From the IMG/VR virus record IMGVR_UViG_3300035670_000701, positions 1 to 36,256 of that record: a stretch of DNA of 36,256 nucleotides; one strand, written 5' to 3'. Source of the DNA: a virus. The position numbers were made by a program, and so were the translations under genes. The stretch's first letter is position 1. Every line of letters starts with the position of its first letter. Positions 4,286-7,381 of this stretch are shown here, piece by piece. The notes under the pieces were generated by a model. That model had not been told where the DNA came from. It did not search any database and was given only the letters and a program-made list of their open reading frames with translations.

Positions 4286-4801
4286 CTAGTAAGTACTAAA
4301 ATCAGAGCTACTATAGAACCCTTTCTCTTCCCTATAGGTAGCTATTTGCATGGACTGCATCTTGTCCATCAATTTTCTTGCTGATTCTGATGCTATTCTG
4401 GCAGAAAGTTCTATAGCCTCAGCTAAATGAACTATAGACTCACAAGTGACAAGAGCAGAATACTCAGACTCAGCTGCTGCTATAGCGGAAGCTTCTCTTT
4501 CTGAGTCGTTCTTTCCTACTTTATTAGCTTTATATACCCTATTGTAGTCTCCTTGGAGAATTTTCAATTGAGCTCTAGCTATACCAGCAAATCTAGCAGC
4601 TCTGCCATAAACATTAGAAGTTCTAGCTACAAGTGAAGCAATGGCGTCAAAACCCATATCAACAGTATCATTCTCTGGTATCTCAACAAAATACTTATTT
4701 TGCTTGTCAATACTGCTGTACGCTTCTATCACTTCTGAAAGTTGAGGTCCTAAAAATTCAATCAGAAGCTCCCTAAGTTTTTCTAAGGAAGGAGTATTCA
4801 T
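4286..4801 (-). CDS. All-helical phage protein of unknown function, 171 aa
   Basis: Starts at ATG 4801, overlapping the sigma-like gene stop by ATGA, with GGAG seven bases upstream. It is predicted almost wholly helical. Residues 60-150 are alanine- and glutamate-rich with coiled-coil-like spacing (ARFAGIARAQLKILQGDYNRVYK, then SEREASAIAAAESEY, then AEAIELSARIASESARKLMDKMQSM). The pattern resembles adaptor or scaffold-like helical bundles rather than an enzyme. Its tight coupling to the sigma-like factor allows an anti-sigma or co-activator role, and its proximity to RNase H allows a replication role. Neither is shown by the sequence. Confidence 0.68.
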   Translation of the reverse strand: MNTPSLEKLRELLIEFLGPQLSEVIEAYSSIDKQNKYFVEIPENDTVDMGFDAIASLVARTSNVYGRAARFAGIARAQLKILQGDYNRVYKANKVGKNDSEREASAIAAAESEYSALVTCESIVHLAEAIELSARIASESARKLMDKMQSMQIATYREEKGFYSSSDFSTY

Positions 4802-5679
4802 TTATTTTTCTCCATTGATATTAAAGTTTTATATTCATACATATCAAATTCAATTATGTAGTCTACTATTTTTTGTCTAACCTTAGAAAGATGCTCCCTA
4901 ACCGTATTAGGATGTTCATTTATTTTCTGAGAAATTTGACTCGACCTTTGACCGTCAACATATCTCCATTTTAGCAGCTGCCTTTCCTGAACAGATAGTT
5001 TATCAAATGGTGGAGAATTTTTCTCACCTAAGACCCAAAATTCATCTATTTTGTCTGACGATAGCATCTCTTCAAGCGAAAACTCAACCGGATCTGCCTT
5101 AAATCCAACGTAATTCTCTTCTGACTCATCATCTACGCTACTATCATCTGATATCAAAGGAAAGGTCTTCCTACCAAGTTGGTCTATTAAAAAGGTGTCA
5201 ACATTCTTTTTAAGAAGATAAAAAAAGTAACTATACAAAAATCCACTAAAAGGTATCGATCCCTTTCTCTCATATCTAGCTATGCACTGGAAGAATGTCA
5301 TATCAACAGTTTGCCTAATATCTTCTTCATCACCGTATCTTCTAGCCATATAATTTATTCCCCTCATGCATTCTTGAATCTCTTTCATTGCTTGAGGCGT
5401 AATTTTATTTTTTCTAAGCGCAAAGCGAGTATATGGATCTTTTATAAATAAAGATATAAATCTCCTTATATCGTAATCGTTCAAGTTAAATCTATTAAAA
5501 TACAGCAGTGCGCTATACTTACTTAAAAAATTATTAAAAACTTTTAGAAGTTCTTCTTGACCACTTGAAGATCCAGTTTTGGCTTTAACTATAAGATTCT
5601 GCATGTCTTCCTCGGGAAGGGAGTAATAATTTTCTTTATAGGTTTTCTTTTTCTTTTCTTCTTTTTTTTCTTGGTTCAC
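4798..5679 (-). CDS. Sigma-70-family-like RNA polymerase sigma factor
   Basis: A 293-aa product best started at GTG 5679, which has GGAAGG six bases upstream and overlaps the endonuclease stop as GTGA. A TTG at 5694 is in frame but has no site. The N-terminus is a Lys/Glu-rich disordered arm. A helical region-2-like segment lies near residues 110-170 (EEDIRQTVDMTFFQCIARYERKG... FSGFLYSYFFYLLKKN), and a clear region-4-like helix-turn-helix near 223-275 (LSVQERQLLKWRYVDGQ... SQISQKINEHPNTVREHLSKVRQKI). This is the arrangement of an alternative sigma factor lacking regions 1 and most of 3. It probably directs host RNA polymerase to middle or late phage promoters. It is second in an operon with its own sigma-70-like promoter. 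Confidence 0.72.
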   Translation of the reverse strand: MNQEKKEEKKKKTYKENYYSLPEEDMQNLIVKAKTGSSSGQEELLKVFNNFLSKYSALLYFNRFNLNDYDIRRFISLFIKDPYTRFALRKNKITPQAMKEIQECMRGINYMARRYGDEEDIRQTVDMTFFQCIARYERKGSIPFSGFLYSYFFYLLKKNVDTFLIDQLGRKTFPLISDDSSVDDESEENYVGFKADPVEFSLEEMLSSDKIDEFWVLGEKNSPPFDKLSVQERQLLKWRYVDGQRSSQISQKINEHPNTVREHLSKVRQKIVDYIIEFDMYEYKTLISMEKNK

Positions 5680-6242
5680 TTTTTTCCTTCCCAATTTAAA
5701 AGATATTCGCTGTACTCGTCTCTTAAATCTTCATAAAACATAATACTAGGAACTTCAAGCTCCTTCATAAAGCTAATAGCGTCTTTTGAGTACCTGCTGA
5801 TGACACAAGTGAGGTTTAAAAATTCTTCAATATAATATCTTTTAAATCTTTTAAGTTTAATTTTACTTTTATCATCAAGATACCCCTTGATTTCAATCCA
5901 ATCTTTATTTCTTCTTAAGAAAAAATCGGGAGTATAAGCTCTAGTCCCTCTTTTTACTGGGAATGGAAAAACTGTAGGTTCAAAATCAAAATCTATCTTA
6001 TAGATGTTTAAAACCCTAACGAAGTTAGCTTCCCAACTGGATCTAACGTTCATTTGGATATCATTTCTAAAACCAGTTTTAGTATACTGGAAAGCGTTGC
6101 CCTTTTTTCTCTGAACGATTCCATCATTCTCCAGAAGCGCTTGATCAACCTGCCTGTTTCTGATATTGTTCATGTTCGGGTGATTTTTGAAAGAGGATTT
6201 TTCCAAAAAAAAGTCTCTTGACTTGACAACCTCTACGCCCAT
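5676..6242 (-). CDS. PD-(D/E)XK-family endonuclease (TnsA/phage endonuclease-like)
   Basis: A 188-aa product starting at ATG 6242 with AAAGGA seven bases upstream; the in-frame extension to 6308 would run through the promoter and is rejected. The nuclease core is visible as E71 (RSSWEANF), D106 (YTPDFFL) and E117-x-K119 (WIEIKGY), the classic E...D...ExK arrangement for two-metal DNA cleavage. The NVRSSWEANFVRVL and F.EP...FPF segments are typical of small phage endonucleases. The role could be a recombination junction or repair nuclease, or host DNA breakdown. It is the first gene of the operon that also encodes the sigma-like factor. Confidence 0.78.
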   Translation of the reverse strand: MGVEVVKSRDFFLEKSSFKNHPNMNNIRNRQVDQALLENDGIVQRKKGNAFQYTKTGFRNDIQMNVRSSWEANFVRVLNIYKIDFDFEPTVFPFPVKRGTRAYTPDFFLRRNKDWIEIKGYLDDKSKIKLKRFKRYYIEEFLNLTCVISRYSKDAISFMKELEVPSIMFYEDLRDEYSEYLLNWEGKK

Positions 6243-6252
6243 TGTGATATCC

Positions 6253-6281
6253 TTTACTCGTAAACCTATAAGTAGAATAAT
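6253..6281 (+). promoter_or_regulatory. Candidate plus-strand promoter for the 68-aa gene
   Basis: TTTACT at 6253-6258 and AATAAT at 6276-6281 are separated by 17 bases, a moderate sigma-70-like match. Transcription would start near 6288, leaving a leader of about 42 bases that includes the AAAGG site before ATG 6330. The -10 overlaps the opposing minus-strand -10 by two bases. Confidence 0.42.
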
Positions 6282-6308
6282 TATACAGTATAAATTAAAA
6301 AAATACAA
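6280..6308 (-). promoter_or_regulatory. Sigma-70-like promoter of the endonuclease/sigma operon
   Basis: On the minus strand TTGTAT (6308-6303) and a perfect TATAAT (6285-6280) are separated by exactly 17 bases. Transcription would begin near 6273, giving a leader of about 30 bases with AAAGGA before the endonuclease ATG at 6242. It is the best-spaced promoter in the window. Confidence 0.72.
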
Positions 6309-6329
6309 ATTATAATGAAAGGTTACATT

Positions 6330-6536
6330 ATGAACACTTTAAATACTTTGATCACCAGCATTAACGAGAACATTAAGACAAATACGGTCAAAGACCTCAT
6401 GTCTATTGGGCTGTCTCAAGATGAGGCTACGTCAATGTTAATTAAGTTTACCCCTAACTACCAGGAGCAAGCTGAATTGTTTGCCTCTTTTGGAGATGAG
6501 GACCTGACCGAAGTAGCATTTAATAGCGAATTCTGA
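6330..6536 (+). CDS. Lone plus-strand small acidic protein, 68 aa
   Basis: This is the only supported plus-strand gene in the window. The start at ATG 6330 has AAAGG eight bases upstream; an in-frame ATG at 6315 has no site. The product is acidic and helical, with an N-terminal helix (LNTLITSINENIK), a compact VKDLMSIGLSQDEATSMLIKF segment reminiscent of a three-helix UBA-like or DNA-mimic fold, and a very acidic C-terminus (FGDEDLTEV). Its codons are visibly richer in G and C than its neighbours. It has its own promoter region and a strong terminator, so it is an independent cassette. Function is unknown; an early host-takeover or anti-sigma protein is one hypothesis. Confidence 0.75.
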   Translation: MNTLNTLITSINENIKTNTVKDLMSIGLSQDEATSMLIKFTPNYQEQAELFASFGDEDLTEVAFNSEF

Positions 6537-6542
6537 TAAACC

Positions 6543-6585
6543 AAAAAAGAGGGGTAGTCTGCTGGTCGGACTACCCCTCTTTTTT
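6543..6585. terminator. Bidirectional rho-independent terminator
   Basis: A perfect 17-bp inverted repeat (6543-6559 with 6569-6585) encloses a 9-base loop. The arms carry GAGGGGTAGTC/GACTACCCCTC with six A residues outside on the left and six T on the right. It can therefore end both the plus-strand gene at 6330-6536 and the minus-strand Cas4-like gene, whose stop codon (6584-6586) overlaps its edge. Confidence 0.93.
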
Positions 6586-7381
6586 ATTTACCTATTTTAC
6601 TATTCCTGTAAACTCCAGTACCACAAGCTCCGGACTTAGCGTGATCGCAGTAGGAGCATATTCTTGTATTGGATGTTGGAAGATAGTTCACATCTTCAAC
6701 TATTTTTTTCATCTGATCAATAAGTTTAATCTTAACATTTTCTATATCTTCATATGAGAATGTGTGCCCCTTCCTTCTACCAGATCTTAAATAGTACAAT
6801 TCTGCATATACTTTTTTCTCAGGAAAAATCAATGATGCAGCTAGCGCATAGATTCCCAATTGTAAATTATTTGGTACTTCCTTACTTGAGACTTCCCATT
6901 TCCCAGTTTTATAATCTATAATGTGTACGATGTCACCTCGAACATCAACTCTATCTATAAAACCTCGTATAATATAAGAACCTATTATAAGCTCAAAGCC
7001 CATTTCTTTAGCAAATATATTAAACTTTTCTTCATGATGAGTATCAAAGAAGTCTTCTATTATTACAGACCCAGCGTCAAGTAAATCGGTTGATATTTGA
7101 TTGGAAGGATCATACTTAGGTATAGCTGACGCATACTCTGATTTTAGTTGATCTAGATCAAGCTGAGATTCATTATCTAATACATTTTCAAAGACTTCAT
7201 GGACTATATTACCCAGCACGGCTGCTGGGGAAAACTGTCTCGGCTCCTTTGAGATGTAACTATAAAAATATTTAGCTGCACATTGGTTGTAGGTATCTAT
7301 CCTTGAATAAGAAAAGTCTACTAAAGCTATTTTTTCTAAATCAGATAAATTATCGTAGTTTTTTACTTCAATTGATCTCAA
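6584..7381 (-). CDS. Cas4-like RecB-family exonuclease with iron-sulfur cysteines
   Basis: A 265-aa PD-(D/E)XK nuclease of the Cas4/AddB-like type. Residue C34 (YNQCAAKYFYS) and C242, C245 and C253 near the C-terminus (ICSYCDHAKSGAC) form the four-cysteine set that binds a [4Fe-4S] cluster in this family. The active site is intact: H61 (NIVHEVFE), D143 (GFIDRVD), D156-x-K158 (IIDYKTG) and Q174 (LQLGIYA). Expected role: processing DNA ends in phage recombination or replication. The start appears to be TTG at 7381 with GAGG eight bases upstream. A paralogous protein at 13699-14481 keeps the cysteines but not the active site. There is no CRISPR context. Confidence 0.87.
   Translation of the reverse strand: MRSIEVKNYDNLSDLEKIALVDFSYSRIDTYNQCAAKYFYSYISKEPRQFSPAAVLGNIVHEVFENVLDNESQLDLDQLKSEYASAIPKYDPSNQISTDLLDAGSVIIEDFFDTHHEEKFNIFAKEMGFELIIGSYIIRGFIDRVDVRGDIVHIIDYKTGKWEVSSKEVPNNLQLGIYALAASLIFPEKKVYAELYYLRSGRRKGHTFSYEDIENVKIKLIDQMKKIVEDVNYLPTSNTRICSYCDHAKSGACGTGVYRNSKIGK

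Follow-up and report, generated by a model that had tools for sequence, protein, structure and literature searches.

A lone plus-strand gene opposes a resolvase/sigma-like operon in the 36,256-bp IMG/VR virus fragment analysed here (the window, whose coordinates are used throughout), and comparison with its relatives suggests that a terminator, the operon promoter Pendo and this small gene make up a boundary at which a second promoter, P1, faces Pendo so that one RNA polymerase would block the other. We give this account as a whole a probability of about 0.5; the parts of it that the sequence itself shows are those of a boundary, conserved across a clade of large tailed phages, at which one transcription unit gives way to the next. 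A lone wrong-way gene within ~100 kb of co-directional genes, together with a promoter-like element in its neighbour's codons, would mark a point of regulation seldom given up across a widespread group of uncultured phages. The site is a candidate for how these phages separate transcription of their replication genes from that of the sigma-like operon, and it brings forward a new small-protein family as a candidate for study.

Gene order and the limits of the transcription units

The operon comprises a 188-aa T7 endonuclease I-like Holliday junction resolvase (5676–6242, minus strand; phrog_9019, 3e-17) and a 298-aa sigma-like factor (4798–5694, minus) carrying a region-4 helix-turn-helix (Sigma70_r4_2, 27.3 bits against a cut-off of 25.7); the latter ORF gave no region-2 match above the Pfam cut-off, and its match to TIGR02937 (residues 113–278) fell below that model's own cut-off. 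On the other side, the last gene of the upstream operon encodes a Cas4/RecB-like PD-(D/E)XK exonuclease (6584–7381, minus; PDDEXK_1, 3.6e-31) and ends at the terminator. Between them lies the small gene (6330–6536, plus), which encodes 68 aa and is preceded by the Shine–Dalgarno sequence GAAAGG (6315–6320, plus).

This order, exonuclease (minus), small gene (plus), resolvase and sigma-like gene (both minus), is conserved in more than 100 IMG/VR contigs, gathered by IMG/VR scans that used the small protein and its two neighbours, resolvase and sigma-like factor, as queries, with resolvase identities down to ~47%, and the small ORF has the same place and orientation in nearly all complete intervals among them. 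Two further contigs, with resolvases of ~40% identity, also contain a counter-oriented small ORF, whose homology to the small gene is unproven. A bacterial genome scan with the resolvase returned no relative, and no homologue of the small protein was found in cultured phages. The initial annotation had described the 68-aa gene as the only one on the plus strand, set against an endonuclease/sigma-like operon, and this was borne out: it is the sole credible plus-strand gene in the window, the other plus-strand ORFs having been rejected as antisense over real genes. In a 109-kb relative (G006), where orientations were counted with a simple ORF caller from 58 to ~105,290, it is again the only credible counter-oriented gene, and the only other opposite-strand ORF called there, of 55 aa (6131–6298), was not judged to be a gene. 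Measured against its closest relatives the small gene has dN of 0.06–0.26 with dS above 1 or saturated, and therefore codes for a protein under purifying selection.

An intrinsic terminator that can act in both directions is predicted at 6543–6585, where A6, the stem GAGGGGTAGTC/GACTACCCCTC with a 9-nt loop, and T6 form a hairpin of −29.7 kcal/mol; a hairpin scan that allowed loops of up to 8 nt had missed it. A comparable hairpin is present in 32 of 34 lineages, the others being L101, where none was seen, and L076, which is cut by the contig end. The sequence places this bidirectional terminator at the end both of the small gene and of the replication operon (DnaE ... exonuclease), where it would insulate the unit. 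At 2194–2211 a second strong inverted repeat, followed by a run of T on the minus strand (GAGAGGGGTAACCCTCTCTTTTTT), probably terminates the sigma-like operon. Searches of Rfam gave no match and no tRNAs were found.

Pendo (6280–6308, minus) consists of TTGTAT (6308–6303), a 17-bp spacer and TATAAT (6285–6280), with an expected start at ~6273. Promoter-like sites in the window are no commoner than in dinucleotide shuffles (69 versus 77 ± 9.5; 86 versus 84.5 ± 9.3), and the minus and plus sites of the initial annotation rank 56th and 486th, respectively, by a sigma-70 matrix; we therefore relied on relatives rather than on single-sequence matches. In all but a few of 32 protein-distinct lineages TATAAT is kept at 17-bp spacing from a TTG-type −35 element, the exceptions being TATACT in L101 and the −35 elements TGAATT in L038 and TTTCTT in L049. 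Nearly all lineages of the wider set agree, with TATACT also in the L201 type and a −35 element that does not begin with TTG also in L189. The minus promoter of the initial annotation therefore holds both in its coordinates and in its conservation, and a sigma-70-type promoter belonging to the resolvase/sigma-like operon itself is strongly supported by these comparisons. Since the elements of both the terminator and Pendo are conserved, transcription of the replication operon would stop at this site, and the resolvase/sigma-like operon would be transcribed from a fresh start.

A putative promoter nested in resolvase codons

P1 (6223–6253, plus) comprises TTGACA (6223–6228), TGA (6245–6247) and TATCCT (6248–6253), with an expected start at ~6260. 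It faces Pendo and spans both the 5′ end of the resolvase gene, with TTGACA falling in codons 5–7, and the resolvase Shine–Dalgarno sequence. Neither TTGACA...TATCCT at 6223–6253 nor the terminator at 6543–6585 appeared in the initial annotation. The pattern, TTG (TCG in three lineages) followed by 17–19 bases and TA(T/A)CCT, usually with TGN before it, was found in 35 of 35 lineages and occurs once in the window. It recurs in lineages outside the discovery set, for example L191, L207, L221 and L231, and is not obvious in L220–L223, L225–L228 and L229–L230; most of the lineages that were added later through the sigma-like protein show it again, some of the matches listed by pattern being alternative hexamers.

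We first assumed that TTGACA was a coincidence of valine codons and the Shine–Dalgarno sequence, an assumption that codon tests overturned. Valine codon 5 of the resolvase is GTC in 25 of 25 lineages, a codon that makes up 7–15% of valine codons in these genomes, and it is the sole four-fold column of 45 without change on the resolvase tree, the next best being the adjacent codon 4. Where the residue is Thr or Ala instead of Val, CAA is still kept and the hexamer becomes TTGTTA, TTGCAA, TTGTAA or TTGTCA. The mean −35 score of P1 is 5.9 compared with 3.0 ± 0.25 after synonymous randomisation, the conservation tests being only partly corrected for relatedness. These comparisons show that a plus-strand TTGACA-like hexamer, with TANNNT 17–19 bases further on, is maintained in the resolvase gene beyond the needs of the protein, and we infer that the element is the promoter of the small gene.

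A rather unlikely alternative is that TTGACA/TATCCT is a translation-initiation signal of the resolvase mRNA and not a promoter. Constraint on synonymous codons is frequent at the beginnings of genes, and the element overlaps the Shine–Dalgarno sequence and codons 4–7, where such constraint is common; moreover, P1 in the window has a weak −10 element and a 19-bp spacer, which is poor for sigma-70. The CCT of the −10 element is explained by the resolvase Shine–Dalgarno sequence, and part of the conservation of P1 could serve translation. The TA of TA(T/A)CCT is however left unexplained by it, because (A/T)TA after an AGG-type Shine–Dalgarno sequence is rare in other genes (23 of 257 other sites in six genomes). 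Against a translational signal there is also the behaviour of CAA, which is displaced by a single base from one codon set to another with the distance from TTG to TANNNT staying at 17–19, and the lack of a consensus RNA structure in the resolvase leader. Taken as a promoter, P1 forms with Pendo a pair of conserved promoter sequences that face each other with overlapping footprints, as in face-to-face phage promoters.

Overlapping −10 elements and other routes to the small gene

The initial annotation had proposed a different plus-strand promoter, TTTACT-N17-AATAAT (6253–6281, plus; TTTACT 6253–6258, AATAAT 6276–6281), the −10 hexamer of which shares 6280–6281 with TATAAT on the minus strand. 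All the elements that it named are in place, including the two-base −10 overlap. The plus pair itself did not rise above chance, ranking 486th in the window, and its conservation stops at the window and its five closest relatives, with spacings of 16–17 bp, L005 having the 16-bp spacer. By these comparisons it is the weaker of the plus candidates and P1 the better supported. What survives of the proposed overlapping divergent promoters is a set of closely packed opposing promoters: our scan of related phages recovered the synteny in more than 100 contigs, and the AATAAT/TATAAT overlap was lost beyond the closest relatives. A promoter at TATAAT 6311–6316 (plus) was also considered and dropped, being absent in close relatives. 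The resolvase 5′ leader also carries a palindrome, TTTAC-TC-GTAAA (TTTACTCGTAAA; 6253–6264), to which dyads in L019, L053 and L066 are related.

A shared −10 region raises the possibility, which we consider doubtful, of a bidirectional promoter, in which polymerase binds either way round and the Pendo −10 element, used in reverse, drives the small gene. A second plus −10 hexamer, AATTAT (6279–6284, plus), is inherent in the reverse of TATAAT, so that AATAAT/AATTAT overlaps TATAAT at 6279–6285, and the predicted opposite-strand starts lie 15 bp (AATAAT) or 18 bp (AATTAT) apart, within the 7–25 bp taken to define such promoters. The reverse of TATAAT inevitably supplies the A at −11 and the T at −7, so that nATTAT comes with any TATAAT, and in bacterial bidirectional promoters the usual distance between divergent starts that share a −10 is 18 bp (Warman et al.; PMC12825309, PMC10268837), a geometry that AATTAT fits. 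TTTACT/AATAAT is, in addition, kept in the six closest sequences despite saturated synonymous sites in coding sequence. However, the plus site of the initial annotation ranks only 486th, and no good −35 element is kept across the leadered clade. The likeness to bacterial bidirectional promoters extends to a −10 region shared by opposed promoters and to the 18-bp geometry, but unlike in those systems the plus element that is kept best stands apart as a promoter-like site of its own, opposite Pendo, and −10 overlap is not the rule where a further promoter, P2, exists.

P2 has the form TTGnnn-N17-TANNNT-N6/7-ATG and lies directly before the small gene in 21 lineages (~60%). It resembles leaderless genes, in which TANNNT lies ~12 bp before the start codon (PMC3160421), and is predicted from its position to give a leaderless mRNA. 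The window's own clade differs: P2 is absent, a Shine–Dalgarno sequence is used and no TANNNT occurs 6–8 nt before the start codon of the small gene in the window. P2-like patterns are rare in G003, G005 and G006 (1–4 per genome), the small gene being among them each time. P2 stands back to back with Pendo and their −10 elements do not overlap; because most relatives have this extra plus promoter, −10 overlap is not a conserved principle among them. An inverted repeat on the P2 −35 element exceeds shuffles overall (mean arm 5.4 versus 3.7 ± 0.17), an excess that partly follows from the back-to-back −35 elements. In L053, L049, L033, L037, L028 and L117 the arms differ but are complementary, for example TTGCAAC-GCGA-GTTGCAA, and such repeats are a possible operator.

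The small protein and the proposed switch

The small protein is acidic (pI 4.05, net charge ~−8.5) and belongs to a family without a name, mostly of 54–68 aa; the 68-aa ORF has nine direct IMG/VR homologues, and homologues were found in more than 100 IMG/VR contigs in all. In AlphaFold2 predictions of moderate confidence (pLDDT 75 and 79.5) a long helix at the N terminus is joined by two or three shorter helices. The helical core bears a weak resemblance in sequence and fold to UBA-like domains and RuvA domain III, with an LGFxxxxA motif, that does not reach a significant E-value: the UBA profile PF09145 scored 13.2 bits against a cut-off of 27, comparison with UBA/RuvA chains in the PDB gave E of 0.17 or worse, and Foldseek gave E >1. 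No named family in Pfam, PHROGs or NCBIfam was matched, which suggests that the family is new. A C-terminal Phe is present in 34 of 34 closer lineages, compared with 26 of 432 among other proteins; its reading as an SSB-type tail was dropped, since the distant members L207, L216, L221 and L231 lack it (alignment A5 comparison). Our leading guess is that the protein binds a transcription or recombination protein; the sigma-like factor, the polymerase or the resolvase may be its target.

That the small acidic protein regulates the sigma-like factor, as the initial annotation suggested, is a guess, and we regard as improbable the specific proposal that it acts as an anti-sigma factor on the phage's own sigma-like protein, encoded close by. 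It shares small size, acidity and helical content with some anti-sigma proteins of phages, and its gene lies near the sigma-like gene on the opposite strand. No anti-sigma family in Pfam, PHROGs or NCBIfam was matched, however, the resolvase gene stands between the two genes, and their co-occurrence follows from the conserved gene order.

Somewhat short of an even chance, in our estimate, is plain insulation: nothing more than a common kind of operon boundary, equipped with a promoter and a small accessory or host-takeover gene, where the opposing promoters carry no regulatory meaning. Terminators with divergent promoters are common, and distant members of the small-protein family vary in length and C terminus. 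Contig L198 (5250–5480, reverse strand) is near-identical to L197 but has lost the small gene together with the terminator and the final codons of the exonuclease gene, the junction falling just after CACCAT; this gap is either a natural deletion or a misassembly, and if the contig is not misassembled the small gene may be dispensable, which would suit such a boundary. Against it, the layout, a tight spacing of 70–120 bp and the nested P1 are kept among lineages whose small proteins are often only 25–40% identical to that of the window.

In the account that we prefer, P1 and Pendo would face each other with starts ~13 bp apart (~6260 versus ~6273), and one polymerase would block the other because their footprints overlap. 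RNA polymerase would then be unlikely to occupy both opposing promoters together, making mutual exclusion likely. Synthesis of the small acidic helical protein would precede, or take the place of, that of the resolvase and the sigma-like factor, and this would order early replication and later transcription. A switch as the initial annotation proposed is thus plausible from the arrangement of the sites. More tentative is its fuller form, in which the −35 element sits in synonymous codons of the opposed gene and the −10 element over its ribosome-binding site, polymerase choosing between a small UBA-like regulator and the resolvase/sigma-like operon. The expected interference at overlapping promoters is competition for polymerase (PMC6593788). 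The switch is weakened by five E. coli bidirectional promoters at which, at basal activity, polymerases did not compete (PMC12825309), and because of these five cases overlap alone does not make a switch.

A face-to-face promoter layout is found in phages 186 and P2. As with the convergent pR/pL promoters of phage 186 (PMC6593788), the promoters here are facing phage promoters at which transcriptional interference would be expected; they differ in that only ~13 bp would separate the predicted starts and one −35 element is embedded in coding sequence of the gene that it opposes. Neither product here resembles CI or CII, and no lysis–lysogeny regulator was found under P1 or Pendo, their products being the resolvase/sigma-like operon and the unclassified small protein. 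Moorella phage MTATph1 carries a resolvase, a sigma-like regulator, a Cas4-like nuclease and a DNA polymerase adjacent in a row, the same four gene kinds that are adjacent here (compare 4798–5694 in the window and 5544–10713 in L158). Its resolvase is RuvC-like rather than T7 endonuclease I-like and no lone counter-oriented gene is annotated among the four, but the likeness suggests an old module of replication, recombination and transcription genes.
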